Positions 52,671 through 62,659 of a stretch of DNA of 64,000 nt are shown here, in pieces. The notes below the pieces were generated by a model. The model did not search any database. It had not been told where the DNA came from and saw only the letters and a program-made list of their open reading frames with translations. Each line of letters begins with the position of its first letter. The stretch's first letter is position 1. The position numbers and the translations under genes are program-made. The DNA is taken from positions 2,687,001-2,751,000 of the forward strand of contig NZ_OU015430.1 in NCBI RefSeq assembly GCF_907164845.1, written 5' to 3'. Origin of the DNA: Lysobacter luteus. GTDB lineage: Bacteria > Pseudomonadota > Gammaproteobacteria > Xanthomonadales > Xanthomonadaceae.

Positions 52671-53948
52671 ATGCGTCCTGTCCGTCCCGTTGCCGTGCTC
52701 GGCGGAGTGCGAATCCCGTTCTGTCGCCAGAACACCGCGTATGCGGACGTCGGCAACCTGGGGATGTCGGTGCGCACGCTCGGCGCGCTGGTCGAGAAGT
52801 TCAGCCTGCACGGGCAGGTGCTCGGCGAGGTCGCGATGGGCGCGGTGATCAAGCATTCCTCCGACTGGAACCTGGGCCGCGAGGCCGCGCTGTCGTCGGG
52901 GCTGTCGCCGCTGACCCCGGGTATCACCCTGCAGCGTGCCTGCGGCACCTCGCTGGACTCGCTGATCACGGTCGGCAACAAGATCGCAACCGGCCAGATC
53001 GAGGCCGGCATCGGCGGCGGGTCGGATTCCACCTCCGACGTGCCGATCGTCTACGGCAAGGCGCTTCGTCGCCGGTTGCTGGCGGCCAATGCGGCGAAGG
53101 ACTTCAAGGGCAAGCTGGGCGAGTTCCGCGGGTTCTCGCTGGGCGAGCTCAAGCCCGATTTCCCGGGCGTGGCCGAGCCGCGCACCGGCAAGTCGATGGG
53201 CGAGCACTGCGAGGACATGGCCAAGCAGTGGAATATCGGCCGCGATTCGCAGGACGAGTGGGCGTTGTCGTCGCACCTGAAGCTGGCCGCCGCCTACGAG
53301 CGCGGATTCTTCGACGACCTGGTGGTGAGCTTCCGCGGCGTCTCGCGCGATAACAACCTGCGTCCCGACAGCTCGCTGGAGAAGCTGGCGACGCTGAAGC
53401 CGGCGTTCGACCGCACCTCCGGCCGCGGCACGCTGACTGCGGCCAACTCGACCCCGCTCACCGACGGCGCCGCGGCCTGCCTGCTGGCGTCCGACGAGTG
53501 GGCCGCGGCGCATGGCCACGAGGTACTGTGCTACCTGCGCGACGCGCACGTTGCGGCGGTCGACTTCGTCCATGGCGAGGGGCTGCTGATGGCGCCGACC
53601 GTTGCGGTACCGCAGATGCTGGCGCGCAACGGCCTGACCCTGCAGGACTTCGACTTCTACGAGATCCACGAGGCGTTCGCGGCGCAGGTACTGTGCACGC
53701 TGCGCGCGTGGGAGAGCGAGGAGTACTGCCGGACCCGGCTCGGCCTGGATGCGCCACTGGGCCGGATCGACCCGGACCGGATCAACCCCAACGGCTCGTC
53801 GCTCGCGACCGGGCATCCGTTCGCGGCGACCGGCGCCCGTATCGTCGCCACCGCCGCCAAGGAACTGGCCGCGCGCGGCGGCGGCCGGTGCCTGGTGTCG
53901 ATCTGCACCGCCGGCGGGATGGGCGTGGTCGCTATCCTGGAGCGGTGA
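52671..53948 (+). CDS. fadI: Acetyl-CoA acyltransferase (3-ketoacyl-CoA thiolase), FadI-like
   Basis: A 425-residue thiolase that cleaves 3-ketoacyl-CoA in fatty acid beta-oxidation, in the cytoplasm. The nucleophile Cys is in LQRACGTSLDS (about residue 88), the catalytic His in EIHEAFAAQ and the second Cys in CTAGGMG near the C terminus; NPNGSSLATGHPFAATGAR is the conserved thiolase loop. Its length and sequence fit the trifunctional FadI/FadJ subgroup; no fadJ is nearby. The start at 52671 has AAGG eight bases upstream. It is convergent with folE and ends in a hairpin. Confidence 0.87.
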   Translation: MRPVRPVAVLGGVRIPFCRQNTAYADVGNLGMSVRTLGALVEKFSLHGQVLGEVAMGAVIKHSSDWNLGREAALSSGLSPLTPGITLQRACGTSLDSLITVGNKIATGQIEAGIGGGSDSTSDVPIVYGKALRRRLLAANAAKDFKGKLGEFRGFSLGELKPDFPGVAEPRTGKSMGEHCEDMAKQWNIGRDSQDEWALSSHLKLAAAYERGFFDDLVVSFRGVSRDNNLRPDSSLEKLATLKPAFDRTSGRGTLTAANSTPLTDGAAACLLASDEWAAAHGHEVLCYLRDAHVAAVDFVHGEGLLMAPTVAVPQMLARNGLTLQDFDFYEIHEAFAAQVLCTLRAWESEEYCRTRLGLDAPLGRIDPDRINPNGSSLATGHPFAATGARIVATAAKELAARGGGRCLVSICTAGGMGVVAILER

Positions 53949-53952
53949 CGCG

Positions 53953-53971
53953 CGGGGCGCTCAGCGCCCCG
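53953..53971. terminator. Hairpin at the fadI/folE convergence, folE stop in loop
   Basis: CGGGGCGC and GCGCCCCG form an 8-bp stem with a 3-base loop, TCA, which is the reverse of the folE TGA stop codon. No T tract flanks it, so it is a possible bidirectional terminator only. Confidence 0.45.
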
Positions 53972-54551
53972 GGCCGACGTCGATGAACTGCAGGAACTCG
54001 GCGCGCGTGCGGGCATCGTCGCGAAAGCCGCCGAGCATCTTCGAGGTGATCATGCTGACCCCGCGCTTGTGCACGCCGCGGGTGGTCATGCATTCGTGCG
54101 CACCCTCGATGACGACCCCGACGCCGCGCGGCTGGAGCACGCGCTGGATGCAGTCGGCGATCTGCGAGGTCATCTTCTCCTGCACCTGGAACCGACGCGC
54201 ATAGGCGTCGACCACGCGGGCGAGCTTGCTGATGCCCACCACCTTCCCGTCGGGCAGGTAGCCGATGTGCGCCTTGCCGATGATCGGCGCCATGTGGTGC
54301 TCGCAATGGCTCTCGAACTCGATGTCGCGCAGCACGATCAGCTCGTCGTAGCCACACACTTCCTCGAACGTGCGCGCGAGGTAATCATCGGGATCGAGCG
54401 CGTAGCCGCTGAACCAGTCCTGGTAGGCCTTGGCCACCCGCTTGGGGGTGTCGACAAGGCCTTCGCGGTCGGGGTTCTCGCCGGCCCAGCGCAGCAGGGT
54501 GCGGACGGCGGCCTCGGCTTCGTCGCGGGAAGGACGGGTGGGATCGGACAT
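53961..54551 (-). CDS. folE: GTP cyclohydrolase I
   Basis: A 196-residue enzyme that converts GTP to dihydroneopterin triphosphate, the first step of folate and tetrahydrobiopterin synthesis. Zinc ligands are in [10 protein letters not shown] and HECMTTRG, with the signature [19 protein letters not shown]. The start at 54551 gives the normal N terminus; the upstream frame lacks sense. Homodecamer formation is expected from the family. It is convergent with fadI and follows a terminator of the next gene upstream, so it is transcribed on its own. Confidence 0.95.
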
Positions 54552-54628
54552 GGCGCTGGGCTTTGTTGCGTGGGGACCGCCCATGCTACCGCGCGCCCAC
54601 CATGGCCGCGAAGCGGCGGCATCCGCCC

Positions 54629-54660
54629 ACAAAAAGACGGGGCCGCCAGGCGACCCCGTC
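54629..54660 (-). terminator. Rho-independent terminator of the glycine-zipper gene
   Basis: On the minus strand a 10-bp stem (starting GACGGGG and ending CCCCGTC, one G-T pair, 5-base loop; 54636-54660) is followed by TTTTTGTG. It isolates the gene from folE. Confidence 0.9.
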
Positions 54661-54712
54661 CAGAACCAACTGCGTGTTGTTCTTGTTTGTTGTTGTTGTG
54701 CCGTAACTTGGC

Positions 54713-55174
54713 TCAGCGACCGTCGCGGTCTGCGTCGCCCGGCATCGCGCGCTCGATGTGGTGCCAGCCGTCACGCACCGCGTGGCGTGCATCGTTCCAC
54801 TCCAGTCGCGAATCGCCGCGGGTGTCGTTCCAATTGCGCTCCAGCGTCGACTCGGCATCCTCGAAGCGCTGGCCGCGGTACTGGCCGTAGGTGTCGTAGC
54901 CGTACTGGTAGGCCGGCTCGTAGTCGTTCCACTCGCGGTCGGCCGAGTAGTACGGACGGTTGCGGTACTCGGTCTCGAAGTGCTTGCGGTACTCGGTCGG
55001 GTTGACGGCTTCGGCGATCGAGTCACCCGCCTTGGCGCCGAGCACGCCACCGGCGACGGCGCCAACCGCGCTGCCCACCGGGCCGGCAACCGAACCGACG
55101 GCCGCGCCCGTCACCGCTCCGGCAACTGCGCCCGTGCCTGCACCAATGCTGTGGTCCTTTTTTACGTCACTCAT
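54713..55174 (-). CDS. Glycine-zipper protein, unknown function
   Basis: A 153-residue protein. Residues about 10-55 are a glycine zipper ([24 protein letters not shown]), the type found in membrane-associated or outer-membrane lipid proteins; the rest is acidic, Tyr/Asp/Asn-rich and without known motifs ([27 protein letters not shown]). No signal peptide or lipobox is visible. GGAG lies nine bases before the ATG at 55174. A strong terminator follows. The zipper suggests oligomeric membrane insertion; the role is unknown. Stress-type CsbD/YmgG-like proteins share such zippers. Confidence 0.75.
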
Positions 55175-55316
55175 GATCGCGCTCCGTTGTACGTGGGGGA
55201 GCCGGCACGGTTGTCCTGCGCCGGTTGCATCCAAGCTAGGCGCGGAGGGGTTCATCCGGGGTGAAAGAAGCGCCGCGCAATGCGCGCGCTTCAGCATCGT
55301 GCACGCGACGTCAGCG

Positions 55317-57002
55317 TCAGGCGTCGACCAGGGGCGGCTGCGCGGCGGCGGTGAACAGGGCCTGCAACTCGCGGCGCTCGCGGTCGTGGTGCAACGCCGT
55401 GCCGGCGCGTGCGAACAGGCCGTCCGCGTTCTCCCCGCGTCGCGACATCGCCAGCCCGATGCAGACATCGACGACGACATCGCGTCCATCGACCCTGAAG
55501 GGTTCGGCGAGTCCGGCACGGATGCGCTCGAGCAGCTGCTCGCAATCGGGACGGCGGCACTCGCTGATCACCGCGAACCGCGCGCCTTCGACCCGCGCGA
55601 TGCTGTCGTCGGCGCGCAGCAGTGCGCGCGTGCGCGAGAGCGCCTGTTGCAGCAGCGCGTCGCCGGCCGCGGTGCCGTGTGCGGTGACGAACGCGGAATG
55701 TCCGGCCAGTTCGAACAGCAACAGGCCGTAGCGGTTGCGCCCGAAGCTGGCGCGCAGGTGCCACGCATCGAGCTTGTGCTTCAGCGCAGCGCCATCGAGC
55801 GCGCCGGTGAGCGGATCGCGCGCAAGGCTGGCGTCGTCGCCGATCGCGAGTCGGTGGCGCGCCAGTGCGCGGTGCACCAGTGCGCCGGCCAGCAGCAGCG
55901 ATTCGACCACCGCGGTCGGTGCAAGTAGGTCCTGCGTCCACGGCAATCGTGCGAGTCCGAGCTGGTCGATCGACGAGGCCGCCACCAGCAGCAGCAGCGG
56001 TGCCCAGGCGAGCAGGTAGATTCCGGCGTGGCCGACGCCGCGGCGCCGCGCGAGCATCGCCAGCAGCAGCATCGCCGGTGCCGCGAACAACAGCAGCACG
56101 TGCTGGCTCAGGTGGTAGGCCTCGTGGACACGCGCACGCCCCAGCCACAGCACCGCCAGCATCGCGACCTGCAGCCACGCCAGTCCGCGTACCGCCAGCG
56201 CCGCGCGTGGCGCGATCCGGTCGAGCTCGAGGAAGCGCAGGGTGAAAACGAACTGCGAGACCACTGCGAGCGCCGCGAACGTCCACGCCGCGGTGGCACC
56301 GCCGGCCGCAATCCAGCCCATGCCGAAGATCTCGCCGGCATCCCCGCTGTCGAGCACCGCGAACACGGCGACTCCGGCGAGATACCCGCCGTGGCACAGG
56401 TACAGCAGATCTCGGAACAGCAGCCACAACGCGAATGCGACACAGGCCCCCAGCACCAGCACGGTGAACGCCGCGGCGACGCGGCGCGCCCCGCGGCGCT
56501 GTTCGAGCGCGAGCTCGGGACCGGTGGCGAGCCGTAGCAGCACCGGGCCGGAACTCGCGCCGGGCACGCGCAGGTAGGCGATGTCGTCGCCCGGCCAACC
56601 GTGCGGCAACGGCAGGGCCCAGCCGCGACGCACCAGCGGCTCGCCACCGGCCAATACGTTGTCGACCTGTAGCGGCGCTGCACCGGGCGGATGGAACAGG
56701 ACCGGTGCGAGTCCGCCGATGCCGTCCAGCACCAGCCAGGGGCGGGCGGTGGGCAGTACGAGATCGCCGCCGCTGATCCGCAGCCAGTAATGGCCTTCGC
56801 CGGGCGGCAACGGCAACCGTGCGACGCCGTCGTCGAGCGCCTCGGCCTGCGCCACCACCGGCGCGGATGCGGGTGGGCCGGCGGCGTCACCGTCGGCCAG
56901 CAGCAGCTCGACCCGCAGTGCGTGCGCACCTGCAGCCGCGGCCACTCCCAACCAGAGCGCGAGCACCGCCGAAAGTGCGGCCCGCCAGTGACATCCGATC
57001 AC
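55317..57002 (-). CDS. 7TM receptor-like protein with degenerate GGDEF domain
   Basis: A 561-residue inner-membrane protein. A signal peptide (LSAVLALWLGVAAAAGA) precedes a periplasmic beta-rich domain (about 30-175), then about seven transmembrane helices (about 180-395), then a C-terminal GGDEF fold (about 410-550). The layout is that of 7TMR-DISM diguanylate cyclases. The signature is EGARF at residues 472-476 where GGDEF is expected, so the catalytic Asp/Glu are lost and cyclase activity is unlikely; GTP or cyclic-di-GMP binding is possible. The start is GTG 57002 with GGGGG seven bases upstream. It lies 34 bases after recD on the same strand, possibly in the recCBD transcript. Confidence 0.87.
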   Translation of the reverse strand: MIGCHWRAALSAVLALWLGVAAAAGAHALRVELLLADGDAAGPPASAPVVAQAEALDDGVARLPLPPGEGHYWLRISGGDLVLPTARPWLVLDGIGGLAPVLFHPPGAAPLQVDNVLAGGEPLVRRGWALPLPHGWPGDDIAYLRVPGASSGPVLLRLATGPELALEQRRGARRVAAAFTVLVLGACVAFALWLLFRDLLYLCHGGYLAGVAVFAVLDSGDAGEIFGMGWIAAGGATAAWTFAALAVVSQFVFTLRFLELDRIAPRAALAVRGLAWLQVAMLAVLWLGRARVHEAYHLSQHVLLLFAAPAMLLLAMLARRRGVGHAGIYLLAWAPLLLLVAASSIDQLGLARLPWTQDLLAPTAVVESLLLAGALVHRALARHRLAIGDDASLARDPLTGALDGAALKHKLDAWHLRASFGRNRYGLLLFELAGHSAFVTAHGTAAGDALLQQALSRTRALLRADDSIARVEGARFAVISECRRPDCEQLLERIRAGLAEPFRVDGRDVVVDVCIGLAMSRRGENADGLFARAGTALHHDRERRELQALFTAAAQPPLVDA

Positions 57003-57035
57003 GTGAATCCCCCCCGGGAACCCGACGAGTCTAGC

Positions 57036-58934
57036 TCAGTGGCCCGCCTCCGCCGCGTCGGGCCGCAACCGTCGGAGCAACCCCGACACCCGTTCGGAAC
57101 GACGCGCCAGTGCCGCGCGCAACACATCCTCGCTGGCACACAGGTGCAGCCCGCGGCGGGCGCGGGTCAAAGCGGTGTAGACCAGCTCGCGCGAAAGCAC
57201 CCGGTTGTCCTGCCGCGGCAACTGCAGCCAGACGGTGTCGAACTCTGAACCCTGGGCCTTGTGCACGGTCATCGCGAACGCGCTTTCGTGCGCGGGCAGG
57301 GCGGCGGGGTGGAAGGCCCGCGTGCCGGCCTCCGTGGCGGTGTCGGGGAACCAGGCCACCAGGGTGCCGCGGTCGTCGCGCAGGCAGATGCCGATATCGC
57401 CGTTGAACAGCCGGTGGCGGTAACTGTTCTCGGTGACCAGCAGCAGCCGACCGTGGAAGTGCGTCGGCGGCCGCGGCCCGACCAGCGCCTCTTCGATACG
57501 CGTGTTGAGGGTGCGGGTGCCCTGCGACCCGCCGCGTACCGCGGTCAGCAGGCGCAGGTGGGCGGCCTCGGCGAGCGCCGTCGCCGGGTCGGACGCGCCG
57601 GCCAGCGCGCGCCAGTGCGGCAACAACGTGCTGGCGCCGGCCGCGATCGGATCGATGGCGTCCTCGTGGAAGTGCACGCCGGCCAGGGTGTGGCCGCGCA
57701 GCAGCGCGATTGCGCGATCGGCGTCGCCATCGCGCACGGCCGCGGCCAGCGGCGCCAGCCCGAAATCGGCCGATTGGCGGTACCCGCGCTGCAGGTGCAC
57801 GCGGTGACCCTGCAGGAAGGAGGTTCCCTCGGGGGCGGCGACCGGCGCGACCAACGGCGCGGGCGCGAACAGGTCGCGGGTCTCGCCCACCGCCGGCGGA
57901 TGGCCGCTGTCGCCAAGCCCGGCGCGCCCGTTCGGCGCCGCGGCGCCATCGGGGTCGGCGGCGGCACAGATGGAGGCCAGCACGTCGCCCGCCTCGACCG
58001 ACGGCAGCTGGTCGGGGTCGCCGAGAAGCACCAGGCGCGCGCCATCGGGCACCGCTTCGGCAAGCTTGCACATCAACGGCAGGTCGACCATCGAGGCCTC
58101 GTCGACCACCACCACGTCGTGCAGCAACGGGTTGTCGGCGTCGTGGCGGAACCGAGGGCTGCCCGGGATGGTGCCGAGCAGGCGGTGCAGGGTGGTGGCG
58201 TGGTCGGGCAGTCCGTCCAGCCAGGCCGGATCGAAGCCTTCGATGCTGGCCATGCGGGTGATCGCGGCCTGCAGGCTTTCGGCCATGCGCTCGGCGGCAC
58301 GACCGGTTGGCGCGGCCAGCGCGATCCGCGGCGCGGCATGCCCGGCCAGGCGCGCCTGGGCGAGCAGCAGTACGAGCATCCGCGCGATCGTGGTGGTCTT
58401 GCCGGTGCCCGGCCCGCCTGTCACCAGCAGCAGCGTGCGTTGCAGGGCGAGCGTGGCAGCGCGGGCCTGCAACGGGTCGGCGTCGCCCGGCGGGAACAGG
58501 GCGTCGCGCACCGCGTCCAGTTCCGCTGCATCGGCGAGGCCAGCGGTGTGGGGGCGGCGCTCGGCGAGCGCGCGAAGGCGGCTGGCAAGCCGGTGCTCGT
58601 ACTCGCGGTAGCGGCGCAGGTAAAGCAGGCCGTGCTCCAGTACGAGCGGGCGCCGGGCGGCGTGGCCGCTGGAATCGGTCGCGACCCACTGCGACTCCGC
58701 CAGCACGGTGGTCCAGCGGGAGGCGTCAGGCCATTCCGGCCCGTCTTCCAGCAGGCCCTTCGGCTTTGCCGGGTCGAACCCCGCGTGACCGTGCGACACC
58801 GCCAGCGAGGCCAGTGCGGCACCGGCCAGGACCAGCTCCGGAGTCGCGGGGTCGAGCCGGCGCAGGGTGGCGGCGAACTCCCGGTCCAGCATCCGCAGGT
58901 GGCCGCCGCGGACCAGCGTGTCGAGCAGGCTCAT
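57036..58934 (-). CDS. recD: Exodeoxyribonuclease V subunit alpha (RecD)
   Basis: A 632-residue superfamily 1B helicase, the 5'-3' motor of RecBCD that processes double-strand breaks. Walker A is GGPGTGKTTT (about residue 170), motif Ia region LAAPTGRAAERM, DEASMVDL the Walker B (DEAS) and GDPDQLPSV motif III. VHKAQGSEFDTV and YTALTRARRGL are motifs V and VI. The start overlaps the recB stop by ATGA, so translation is coupled. The N-terminal domain that contacts RecBC is present. No key motif is missing. Confidence 0.95.
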   Translation of the reverse strand: MSLLDTLVRGGHLRMLDREFAATLRRLDPATPELVLAGAALASLAVSHGHAGFDPAKPKGLLEDGPEWPDASRWTTVLAESQWVATDSSGHAARRPLVLEHGLLYLRRYREYEHRLASRLRALAERRPHTAGLADAAELDAVRDALFPPGDADPLQARAATLALQRTLLLVTGGPGTGKTTTIARMLVLLLAQARLAGHAAPRIALAAPTGRAAERMAESLQAAITRMASIEGFDPAWLDGLPDHATTLHRLLGTIPGSPRFRHDADNPLLHDVVVVDEASMVDLPLMCKLAEAVPDGARLVLLGDPDQLPSVEAGDVLASICAAADPDGAAAPNGRAGLGDSGHPPAVGETRDLFAPAPLVAPVAAPEGTSFLQGHRVHLQRGYRQSADFGLAPLAAAVRDGDADRAIALLRGHTLAGVHFHEDAIDPIAAGASTLLPHWRALAGASDPATALAEAAHLRLLTAVRGGSQGTRTLNTRIEEALVGPRPPTHFHGRLLLVTENSYRHRLFNGDIGICLRDDRGTLVAWFPDTATEAGTRAFHPAALPAHESAFAMTVHKAQGSEFDTVWLQLPRQDNRVLSRELVYTALTRARRGLHLCASEDVLRAALARRSERVSGLLRRLRPDAAEAGH

Positions 58935-61900
58935 GCGGCGTCCCCGGCGAACAGCGCGTCGAGCGCGTGCACCAGCGCCGGTTCCGGCCGGTGCGCGTGG
59001 ATGCCTTCGCGGCCGTCCGGCGCGAGCCCACGGCTGAAGACGTAGCGCACACCGCCAAAGTCGCGCGCGTAGTCGTAGCCGCTGCCGATCCGGAACCGCA
59101 GCCAGCGGTGCAGCGCGAGGGTGTACAGCAGCGCCTGCAGGTCGTACTCGCTGTGCGCCATTGCCGCGTCGAGGCTGGCGGCGTCGTAGCCGGGCAACCG
59201 GTTGGACTTGTAGTCGAGCACGTACCAGCGGCCGGCGGCGGTGTAGGTCAGGTCGATCTTGCCGGTCATCAGGCCTTCCAGCCGCTGGCGCGCACCGAAC
59301 GCATGGCGTGCGGCGAGCACGCCGTGGCGGTGCAGCAGGGCGATCAGCGCGTCGACCCGGGTCGGCGCCAGCGCGAAGTGGAATTCCATCTCGGCGCGGC
59401 GCGCCTCGGCGGCCAGGTCGCACAACCGGCCACCCTCGGGCAGCGGCGCGACCAGGGTGTGGCCGACCAGCCCGGCCAACAGCGCCACGCCGTCATCGAG
59501 GTCGGCGTCCGGGTAACCCCCCGCCCGCAGCGCGGTGCGCAGTGGCGCGTCCTCGCCCGGTGGCGGCGTGTCGCCATCGCGCCAGTCGCGCCACGCGTCG
59601 AAGGTGACGTGTTCAAGCGCGTCGTGCAGCACGTTGCCGAAACGGCTGCCGGCGAAGCGCGGGTCGAACGGGTCGCGCGGATCGTCGACGCGGCCCTCGG
59701 TTGCCGCGTCCGCGGGCGACATGGGCGTGGGGTCGTCGCCGAGCGTTTCGTCGTCGGCGCCCTGCTCGGCACGGGTGGCGGAGGCAAGCGGGGTGGTGCC
59801 CTCGCCCGCGTCGGCGCGCGCCAGCTGGGTGAAGCTGTAGACCCACCAGTCGCGCGCGATCGCGCGTTGGGCGACGCGGGCGGGCGGGACGGCGTCCTCG
59901 TGCAGCGGCGGCAGCGGTGTAGGCAGTGGACCGACCGGGCTGTCGTCGATGGCGATCGCGTCATCGTCCGGTGCGCGCGAAAGCCCATCCAGCAGCGGCG
60001 CGATGCGGGTGCGCTGATGGTTGGAGAACGCACCGGTGGCCAGCCACAACGCGTGGCGCGCGCGGGTCAGGCCCACGTAGAGCAGGCGCGCATCCTCGCC
60101 CTGCTCCTCCTCCGCGTGGCGCGCGCACGCGTCTTTCCACGCCTGCGATGCCTTGTCGATCTTCCAGTGCAGCACGCGACGATCGCCGTCGTGGACGGCG
60201 TGGTGACGGGCATCGTTGCGCCCGTTGCCACCGATGCCGACGAACGGCAGGAAGACCAGCGGGTACTCAAGCCCCTTGCTCTTGTGCAGGGTCACGATCT
60301 GCACGCGGTGCGCGTCGGACTCGAGCCGCAGCAGCTGGGTTTCGTCATCCCGGTCGGCCTCGGCGATCGCCACGCGCAACCAGTCGAGCTGGCCATGCAG
60401 GCCCGGCGTGCGCGCCTGCGCGTCCTGCATCAGCTCACCCAGTTGCAGCAGGTTGGTCAGCCGGCGCTCGCCATCGAGCAGGCCGAGCAGGCGCTCGGCC
60501 GCCGCCGCGCACAGGTCGGCGACAAGGGCGAATGGACCGCTGCGCTGCCAGCGCTCGCGCCAATCCTGCGCCTGTTGCTGGAGCCGGGCATGGGTGGCGC
60601 CGTCGTCATCGAGCGCTGCGATCCGCGCCGCATCGAAACCGAGCAGCACGGTCGCGAGCGCGGCACGCAGCCTGCTGTCGTCGGCCGGGTGCAACAGCGC
60701 CTCGAATACCGCAAGCAGCTCGAGCGCCTCGTCGGTCACGAACAGGCTCTGGTTGCCGGCTGCCACCGCGGGGACGCCGGCGGCAACCAGCGCGAGCTGC
60801 ATCCGGGTCGCCTCCCGATGGCTGCGCACGAGTACGGCGATGTCGCCGGCGACGACCGGCCGGCCGTCGATGGTCGTGGTGCCGGCGCGGGCCTCGCGCA
60901 GCAGCGCGTGGATCTCGCCGACACAGGCCAGCGTGGCGAGCTCGCGCGAGCGGTCGGCCAGGATGGCGTCCGACGGCGGCGCGTCCGGGTCGACGATCGA
61001 GCGGACCACCAGTGCGGGGGCGGGGTGTCCGCCACGCATGAAGTCCCCGTCGCGTCGACGGCCGCCCGGCTGCACCGGCATGAAGCGGATGCGCGGATCG
61101 ACGAACGGCGACGGCGCCGCGGTGGCGTCGGTTGCCCGGTCCGTCGGGTCCGTCGGGTCCGTCGGGTCCGTCGGGGCGACCCCGCCATACAGCGTGGCGA
61201 TGGCGCGGAGCAGCCCCGGCCGCGAGCGGAAGTTGTGGTCGAGCGGCGGGGCCGGCTCGGCCGCGGCGGCGGCCTCCAGGTAGGTGTGCACGTCGCCACC
61301 GCGGAAACCGTAGATCGCCTGCTTGGGGTCGCCGATCAGGAACAGCGCGGGCGGATTGGCGGGCAGCTCCGCCGTCGCGTCATCGGCACCGCCGCCGTTA
61401 CCGAACACCCGACGGAAGATCGACCACTGCCGCGGGTCGGTGTCCTGGAACTCGTCGACCAGCGCGATGCGGTACTGCTTTCGCAAGGCCGCGACGAGCG
61501 CATCCGCGCGACCACGGTCGGCGTCGTCCAGCGCGTTGGCGACGCCATCGATCAGGTCGTCGTAGGTTTGCAGCCGGCGCGAGCGCTTGAGTTCCGCCAG
61601 CCGCGCGCGCGCTTCGGCGCGGATGCGGTGGAGGAACGCGATGCTGCGGGCTTCGAGCCAGCCGTCGTAGCGGGCGCGGGCATCGAGGAACGCATCGACC
61701 GCGTCGCACAGCGATGCCTGCGGCGTGCGGCCCTGACCGCCCTTGTTGGTCTTCTGGAGCAGCGTCCGCGTACCCAGGCGGGTCACCTTGTCGTCCAGCG
61801 CGAGGGTCGGGTCGGCACGATCACACCATTGCTGCAGGATGCGCCAGCAAACGTCGAGCGTCTCGGCCTTGTACATGCCGGCGTTGATGAACCTGGCCGC

Positions 61901-62659
61901 GACCGCCGCGTCGAGGGCCTCGCGCAGTTCGCCACCCCCACTGCCAAACGCCTCGCGCAGCACCCCGGCCGCTTCGATGAGCGCCGGCAAGGGGTTGTCA
62001 TCGCCGGTTGGCCCGGGCCCGGGCAGCAACGGATCATGCGACAGCAGTGCGCGAAGGTCGTCCTGCAACTGCTCCGGCGTCGACCACAGGCGCGCCAGCA
62101 AGGGCGCGTCGTCGGCGTTGGCGGCGGCCGTGCGCCAGAGGTCGGCGGCCAGTTCCTCGCGCAGCGCGGCGTCGCTGGTGAGCAGGGTCCGGGCCTCGAA
62201 ACCGTGGTCGCTCTCGAGCGCATGTTCGCGCAGCACCCGCGCGCAGAACCCATGGATGGTGAAGATCGCCGCGAGGTCGACTTCCCATACCGCCTGCCGC
62301 AGGCGCCGAGCGAGTTGCGCGCGGGTCTCGTGACCTTCGGCCAGGTGTCGCTCGACGATCGTCCGGCTCAGTGCCGCGGCGGCATCGACGTCATCGTCGG
62401 CCGCCTGGTTCACCACCCGGGCGGCCAGTTCCAGCCGTTCCCGGATGCGGCTGCGCAGCTCCTGGGTGGCGGCCTCGGTGAAGGTCACCGCCAGCACCTC
62501 GCCGATGCGCAGCCCACGCTCGACCACCAACCGGGTGACCAGGGTGGCGAGGGTGAAGGTCTTGCCGGTACCGGCACTGGCCTCGATCAGGCGGACGCCT
62601 TCCAGCGGCAGGTCCAGGTAGGGATCGAGGGCGGGTGCGAGCAGGTCGGGCGCATTCAT
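58931..62659 (-). CDS. recB: Exodeoxyribonuclease V subunit beta (RecB)
   Basis: A 1242-residue helicase-nuclease. The N-terminal half is a superfamily 1A helicase: Walker A EASAGTGKTFT (about residues 27-37), LAVTFTEAATQELR (Ia), LVDEFQDTDPRQW (II), LHKSKGLEYP (V) and YVGLTRARHAL (VI). The C-terminal ~250 residues are the nuclease, with the metal-binding DYKSNR segment. A (TDP) tandem insert lies about residue 500. RecB unwinds 3'-5' and loads RecA after Chi. The start overlaps the recC stop and its own stop overlaps recD, both by ATGA. Confidence 0.95.
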   Translation of the reverse strand: MNAPDLLAPALDPYLDLPLEGVRLIEASAGTGKTFTLATLVTRLVVERGLRIGEVLAVTFTEAATQELRSRIRERLELAARVVNQAADDDVDAAAALSRTIVERHLAEGHETRAQLARRLRQAVWEVDLAAIFTIHGFCARVLREHALESDHGFEARTLLTSDAALREELAADLWRTAAANADDAPLLARLWSTPEQLQDDLRALLSHDPLLPGPGPTGDDNPLPALIEAAGVLREAFGSGGGELREALDAAVAARFINAGMYKAETLDVCWRILQQWCDRADPTLALDDKVTRLGTRTLLQKTNKGGQGRTPQASLCDAVDAFLDARARYDGWLEARSIAFLHRIRAEARARLAELKRSRRLQTYDDLIDGVANALDDADRGRADALVAALRKQYRIALVDEFQDTDPRQWSIFRRVFGNGGGADDATAELPANPPALFLIGDPKQAIYGFRGGDVHTYLEAAAAAEPAPPLDHNFRSRPGLLRAIATLYGGVAPTDPTDPTDPTDRATDATAAPSPFVDPRIRFMPVQPGGRRRDGDFMRGGHPAPALVVRSIVDPDAPPSDAILADRSRELATLACVGEIHALLREARAGTTTIDGRPVVAGDIAVLVRSHREATRMQLALVAAGVPAVAAGNQSLFVTDEALELLAVFEALLHPADDSRLRAALATVLLGFDAARIAALDDDGATHARLQQQAQDWRERWQRSGPFALVADLCAAAAERLLGLLDGERRLTNLLQLGELMQDAQARTPGLHGQLDWLRVAIAEADRDDETQLLRLESDAHRVQIVTLHKSKGLEYPLVFLPFVGIGGNGRNDARHHAVHDGDRRVLHWKIDKASQAWKDACARHAEEEQGEDARLLYVGLTRARHALWLATGAFSNHQRTRIAPLLDGLSRAPDDDAIAIDDSPVGPLPTPLPPLHEDAVPPARVAQRAIARDWWVYSFTQLARADAGEGTTPLASATRAEQGADDETLGDDPTPMSPADAATEGRVDDPRDPFDPRFAGSRFGNVLHDALEHVTFDAWRDWRDGDTPPPGEDAPLRTALRAGGYPDADLDDGVALLAGLVGHTLVAPLPEGGRLCDLAAEARRAEMEFHFALAPTRVDALIALLHRHGVLAARHAFGARQRLEGLMTGKIDLTYTAAGRWYVLDYKSNRLPGYDAASLDAAMAHSEYDLQALLYTLALHRWLRFRIGSGYDYARDFGGVRYVFSRGLAPDGREGIHAHRPEPALVHALDALFAGDAA
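61141..61176 (-). repeat. 9-bp tandem repeat in recB
   Basis: Four units of CCGTCGGGT on the + strand (the last ends in G) encode repeated Thr-Asp-Pro in RecB between the helicase subdomains. Unit changes keep the frame. The segment is probably a flexible loop. Confidence 0.8.

Follow-up and report, generated by a model that had tools for sequence, protein, structure and literature searches.

PelD of Pseudomonas aeruginosa is membrane-anchored, with membrane and sensor parts of another kind than those considered here, and sits in the pel operon. It is a c-di-GMP receptor with a degenerate GGDEF domain (PMC12564702 and PMC3974145), as is PopA of Caulobacter crescentus, in which a dead GGDEF domain with an RxxD I-site binds c-di-GMP (PMC12564702); however, PopA is a response regulator and not a membrane receptor. 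Dead GGDEF domains are common, amounting to 24% of cyclases by a count cited in PMC3974145. The nearest characterised analogue that we found to the protein described below is RgsP of Sinorhizobium meliloti, which combines a 7TMR-DISM module and a DISMED2 domain with a degenerate GGDQF motif, keeps RxxD and makes no c-di-GMP, but additionally has a PAS and an active EAL domain (PMC6107284). Its PAS-GGDEF fragment neither made nor bound c-di-GMP despite the intact RxxD (PMC6107284); hence, RxxD is not enough for binding. RetS of P. aeruginosa is a 7TMR-DISMED2 receptor that acts through another receptor (PMC7695008), but has a histidine kinase output instead of a GGDEF fold.

The gene studied here lies in a 64,000-nucleotide stretch of contig NZ_OU015430.1 of Lysobacter luteus (hereafter the window). 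Its product is a degenerate-GGDEF receptor of this known kind, in which the dead domain, with which the protein ends, is the sole output of a 7TMR-DISM protein. It shows the sequence features of the PopA/PelD type, namely a GGDEF fold with a lost A-site and an RxxD five residues before the motif, and lacks the diguanylate cyclase motifs GG[DE]EF and DxDxFKxxN; binding has been measured for PopA, whereas it is only predicted here. Our survey of the open-access literature found no paper joining Lysobacter with 7TMR-DISM, or Lysobacter with both diguanylate cyclase and 7TM, nor did broader searches on c-di-GMP in Lysobacter bring up a paper whose listing names the receptor.

Domain architecture of the receptor

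Sequence searches with Pfam detected in the protein a 7TMR-DISM_7TM domain (PF07695; E 9.8e-16, 58.7 bits against a cut-off of 29) and a GGDEF domain (PF00990; E 8e-15, 55.4 bits against a cut-off of 23.8), with no further domain up to an E-value of 1. The former domain is present in all 14 aligned orthologues. In an AlphaFold model of the whole receptor, built from 20 sequences (mean pLDDT 79, pTM 0.63), residues 29-160 are predicted to form a beta-rich region and residues 161-392 seven long helices. Beyond residue 393 the model has a GGDEF-like alpha/beta fold, which matches the T. maritima GGDEF domain 4urs in Foldseek with a target TM-score of 0.88 at 1.5 A. No output domain besides this fold was recovered (Table 1).

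Table 1. Features of the receptor gene and its neighbours, with positions in the window
Feature	Position	Strand	Basis or remark
7TMR-DISM pseudo-diguanylate cyclase gene, 561 aa, GTG start	55317..57002	-	ORF and Pfam
Signal peptide, ~residues 1-28; hydrophobic segment 8-26, then ...AHA/LRVEL (slash, cleavage)	56919..57002	-	Hydropathy; cleavage site inferred by eye
Periplasmic beta-sandwich domain, ~residues 29-160; predicted fold nearest RetS periplasmic (7TMR-DISMED2) domain	56523..56918	-	Model
Seven transmembrane helices, residues 161-392 in model (Pfam 7TMR-DISM_7TM 179-378)	55827..56522	-	Pfam and model
Degenerate GGDEF domain, residues 395-542	55377..55820	-	Pfam, model and structure match
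Metal/GTP motif remnant FELAGHSAFV, residues 430-439, at place of DxDxFKxxN	55686..55715	-	Alignment
RADD, residues 463-466, I-site RxxD with usual five-residue spacing to motif	55605..55616	-	Alignment
EGARF, residues 472-476, at GGDEF position	55575..55589	-	Sequence and alignment
recD, upstream, 33-base gap	57036..58931	-	
recB	58931..62659	-	
Glycine-zipper protein gene between receptor gene and folE	54713..55171	-	Pfam matches below cut-off
folE (GTP cyclohydrolase I), constant downstream neighbour	53961..54590	-	

Since the Foldseek matches of the full-length protein were taken up by GGDEF structures, a separate model was made of the periplasmic domain (residues 27-165, pLDDT 84). Its best VIA-align match is the RetS periplasmic domain 3jyb (Z 9.9 over 123 residues, 3.3 A, 12% identity), followed by a second RetS entry, 2xbz (Z 9.2). 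Because the third row is an unrelated protein at Z 8.3 (the usual background being Z 7-8), Foldseek ranks 3jyb only sixth with E 0.025 and without any match at E <= 0.001, and Pfam finds no DISMED2 in the window protein (one of 14 orthologues has it, at E 0.0041), our assignment of the domain as RetS-like is fairly but not entirely certain. The first-pass annotation had called both sensor parts intact. For the 7TM module this is borne out by the Pfam match above cut-off and the seven long modelled helices; for the periplasmic domain it holds as a predicted fold with RetS as the best VIA-align match, but not as a domain that Pfam can see in this protein.

Catalytic residues across the orthologous group

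The motif EGARF, correctly identified by the first-pass annotation, places an Arg at the catalytic acidic fourth position of GGDEF and an Ala at the third. At the DxDxFKxxN site, the protein has E431, A433 (D to A), S436 (K to S) and V439 (N to V), while it retains D448 and the RxxD (R463-A-D-D466) in the order RADD-SIARV-EGARF. In the GGDEF fold, as established for PleD and WspR, these positions are the metal, GTP and inhibitory sites.

A search of 395 genomes of the family yielded 37 with hits at E <= 1e-30. Two of these (G019 and G146, 6e-31 to 8e-31) proved to be canonical relatives (L015 and L108) and were rejected as orthologues; the other 35, own genome included, were taken as orthologues based on E <= 1.2e-91 and the presence of folE beside the gene, and all were read at the motif. 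None of the 35, which include many close relatives and reduce to 15 representatives at 85% identity, has GG[DE][DE]F. The fourth motif residue is never acidic (C in 15, S in 9, M in 5, R in 3 and L in 3), with the variants being EGDCF (7), DGDCF (6), EADSF and ESDMF (4 each), GGDSF and ESDLF (3 each), EGARF, DGDSF and AGDCF (2 each), and GRDMF and GGARF (1 each). Phe at position 5 is universal (35/35), 28 orthologues begin the motif with Glu or Asp, and the FKxxN lysine is retained in one and lost in 34. Orthologues with an intact GGDEF, the mark of a recent local loss, were specifically looked for; as 0/35 have one, such a loss is rejected and the reading of a dead site survives, with the distinction that it is the loss that is conserved and not the letters EGARF, found in just two of the group. 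From this group-wide absence of catalytic residues we infer that the cyclase activity itself is very probably dead.

Other A-site residues are mostly retained across the family (D431 in 32/35, D433 in 33/35, N439 in 31/35 and D448 in 33/35), and changes at 433 and 439 like those of the window protein are rare among the 35; therefore, the nucleotide site of the window lineage appears more decayed than that of most orthologues. At the I-site, the Asp is invariant (35/35) and the Arg present in 30, with AAED (two), SPDD (two) and NEHD (one) in the five that have lost R463. Among the 15 representatives, 45 of 153 domain positions exceed R463 in conservation and none exceeds D466, the invariance of which may have structural reasons.

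A profile search of named contigs recovered 20 loci, of which 19 are orthologues after dropping L090, a GGDEF-only match; the same contigs searched with the single protein as query gave no relative. The named orthologues belong to Lysobacter in the wide sense and two metagenome bins (L076, L082), and include those of L. enzymogenes ATCC 29487 (L085) and L. antibioticus (L077, L084), with that of L. arseniciresistens (L071) being the nearest at 74% identity. All 19 are devoid of a canonical motif, though these loci overlap the 35-genome set, several contigs being of identical length (e.g., L071 and G009:C55), such that the counts are not additive. Outside the family, no orthologue was found at E <= 1e-28 in 398 genomes of the order and 369 of the class, samples that partly repeat the family-sample genomes; the weaker matches, L106 and L107 from another family and L108 from the same one, are canonical.

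These bacteria also possess canonical 7TMR-DISM-GGDEF cyclases of identical domain order and with ~24-32% identity to the window protein, and such relatives, taken from this family and order, were placed with the orthologues in a 43-protein tree (a quick IQ-TREE run with SH-aLRT as the sole support measure and midpoint drawing). In it, 20 orthologues together with three tail-less paralogues (see below) are set apart by a branch of SH-aLRT 100, whereas 20/20 of the other 7TM-GGDEF relatives have retained GG[DE]E with F, L, M or V next to it. Five loci (L032, L033, L035, L037 and L038) were left out due to a poor match or the lack of a clean 7TM alignment; L033, L035 and L037 have GGDEL, GGDEI and GGDEF, respectively. 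The simplest account would be a single loss of the catalytic site before the orthologous group diversified.

The dead domain is nevertheless under purifying selection, with no hint of release. In 12 orthologue pairs, the GGDEF part has omega values (Nei-Gojobori, NG86) of 0.029 to 0.287 and the 7TM part of 0 to 0.323, the former being lower in 8/12, where the pairs are not all independent and the synonymous counts are rough in GC-rich DNA. The window protein and L071 give 0.278 for the GGDEF part at dS 0.54.

Genomic neighbourhood, signalling repertoire and tail-less paralogues

The first-pass annotation considered the place of the gene, 34 bases after recD, as unexpected. By our count, 33 bases separate the GTG from the stop of recD, and the order recD-folE is the older one: recD, a glycine-zipper match and folE occur together in five genomes that lack the gene (G003, G004, G005, G011 and G034), the first three from the genus group of the window. 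The constant neighbour is instead folE, found within the fetched stretch at 35/35 orthologue loci against 4/35 for recD, with flanks of 1.5 kb in most; in G023 and G093, recD lies ~13-14 kb upstream of the gene. Likewise, at the 19 named loci, with flanks reaching 9 kb at most, folE lies downstream on the strand of the gene in all and recB-recD precede in three, with the contigs of L074, L075 and L076 beginning less than 2 kb upstream of the gene, where recD could not show. A special link with recD is hence rejected: the gene occupies an old recD-folE slot, and its place after recD gives no clue to function. It is present in 2/10 genomes of the window's genus group, in part of which it has probably been lost.

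At five of the 19 named loci, where one long upstream ORF was scanned in each, the upstream neighbours vary in Lysobacter without recD: an outer-membrane efflux protein in L077, L072 and L081 (there before the tail-less array), an EmrE-like transporter in L085 and, in L087, an ORF with no Pfam match. No conserved signalling-protein neighbour of the receptor gene was seen. A simple scan of 53900-57400, which shows little in GC-rich DNA, gave no promoter-like site and two terminator-like sites against 1.6 expected by chance, one of them ~30 bases past the stop of the gene and none in the 33-base recD gap.

Some incidental features of these neighbours were also noted. RecB scores just below the NCBIfam equivalog cut-off (678.6 against 696.05) and has a short PTD repeat. 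Within the window's genus group recD is patchy, with a distant 39% match in G001:C1:569523-571370 and G008:C35:19314-20960 and no match at 1e-60 in G002, G006 and G007; given this patchiness, some members of the genus may lack recBCD or have something else in its place. Two genomes of one genus group carry a second folE that has diverged (59% identity; G013:C73:34723-35268 and G088:C12:19939-20523).

The own genome has matches to 19 GGDEF, three HD_5 (HD-GYP type) and two PilZ domains, so that parts for c-di-GMP signalling exist in it. Thirteen of the GGDEF motifs are GG[DE]EF, one is GGDEM and five are non-canonical: the EGARF of the receptor, SGDEF, NSDEF, AEHQF and DGGEF. The domains with NSDEF, AEHQF and DGGEF (G000:C1:750828-751289, 1112479-1112943 and 661029-661436, respectively) are each followed by EAL, and the AEHQF protein additionally has a PAS domain and resembles FimX-type layouts. 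A c-di-GMP gene cluster on one strand at G000:C1:660200-664300 comprises a GGDEF-EAL gene, an HD_5 (661727-662209) and a GGDEF (662853-663314).

In Lysobacter sp. cf310 (L081, 4556-8866), three tandem genes coding for proteins of 387, 394 and 398 aa lie directly upstream of the receptor gene, with successive gaps, the last of them to the receptor gene, of ~725, 42 and 96 bases. Each product has a 7TMR-DISM_7TM domain but no GGDEF domain by Pfam, with no more than ~20 residues following its final helix; the tree places them within the orthologue group. Similar tail-less matches occur beside the full gene in five genomes of the family (G023, G093, G215, G252 and G264); some of them span a stop, so that individual copies may be defective or the match may extend past the end of the gene. 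The existence of tail-less paralogues hints that the membrane part may be of use without an output domain. One could go on to envisage a receptor family without enzymatic output, in which the pseudo-cyclase receptor and the tail-less array form mixed receptors in some Lysobacter, though we consider this unlikely.

Modes of action and significance

The signalling of the receptor probably rests on binding and not on synthesis of a messenger, and the original proposal that it changed into a c-di-GMP receptor or a binding partner is plausible. The reading we tentatively prefer, at a little below even likelihood, is that of a 7TMR-DISM receptor whose output, a pseudo-diguanylate cyclase, acts by binding, most likely of c-di-GMP at RxxD, which alters contact with a partner. 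Its basis in sequence and structure prediction comprises the domain layout, the group-wide catalytic loss, the purifying selection and the retention of RxxD in this protein. The ligand, the binding of c-di-GMP, the partner and the direction of signalling we infer as follows: the periplasmic RetS-like beta domain would bind a ligand, by analogy of the carbohydrate type; the seven helices would relay this to the cell interior; and the GGDEF fold in the cytoplasm, presumably unable to make c-di-GMP since before the group diversified, would act by binding, with c-di-GMP at the RxxD I-site changing the contact with a partner protein. Binding at RxxD is proposed because of the precedents of PopA and PelD.

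Against this I-site step count the R463 lost in 5/35 orthologues, the 45 domain positions that exceed R463 in conservation and the RgsP case, with RxxD but without c-di-GMP binding (PMC6107284); the presence of the gene in only 2/10 genus-group genomes speaks against the preferred reading as well. The R463 losses and RgsP would fit a receptor in which the pseudo-cyclase docks on a cyclase or an RpfG-type HD-GYP protein and alters its activity without any bound c-di-GMP. Such direct contact, which we hold to be a real possibility if a doubtful one, has precedents in RetS, the best match of the periplasmic domain, which blocks GacS partly via a non-enzymatic bond (PMC7695008), and in the Lysobacter RpfG, which binds the GGDEF domain of WspR irrespective of its activity, even as GGAAF (PMC9758175). 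The three HD_5 matches in the own genome point the same way, as do the tail-less paralogues, from which the membrane part would seem able to function in the absence of an output domain; however, the I-site is retained in 30/35 orthologues and the gene has no conserved signalling-protein neighbour. Alternatively, the degenerate A-site could bind GTP or another guanine nucleotide without turnover, as in FimX, the degenerate GDSIF site of which responds to GTP (PMC8846402). The A-site residues mostly retained among the 35 orthologues, and the GTP-using FolE encoded beside the gene at every locus, would accord with such a sensor, but the recD-folE neighbourhood exists also without the gene, and A433, S436 and V439 along with EGARF suggest that the window copy should not bind GTP there. 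We accordingly see a GTP sensor as improbable overall: an A-site of this type might be possible in other orthologues and is unlikely in the window protein.

The two remaining explanations dispense with a binding-only receptor. Residual cyclase activity would recall the AGDEF and SGDEF enzymes, which can be active (PMC3974145), but those change only position 1, whereas here Arg stands at position 4, Ala at 3 and FKxxN has lost both its Lys and its Asn; of all the readings this seems to us the most far-fetched. That the gene is a non-functional relic in the process of being lost would agree with its presence in only two of the ten genus-group genomes and with an A-site among the most eroded in the window lineage. 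Yet, an open frame of 561 aa, the 74% identity to L071 and a GGDEF-part omega well below 1 (0.28 against that nearest orthologue) make decay highly improbable.

Returning to the preferred c-di-GMP-binding receptor and to protein contact, the two could be set apart directly, for an orthologue exists in Lysobacter enzymogenes, a biocontrol species where genes are deleted routinely; this makes possible a direct test of c-di-GMP reading against protein contact only. If the mixed receptors considered above were true, several periplasmic domains would feed one binding-only output, a RetS/GacS-like logic in the c-di-GMP world. More generally, this receptor group offers a clean natural case among the dead GGDEF domains: a single orthologous group, dead in 35/35, with the domain still under selection and no other output domain.
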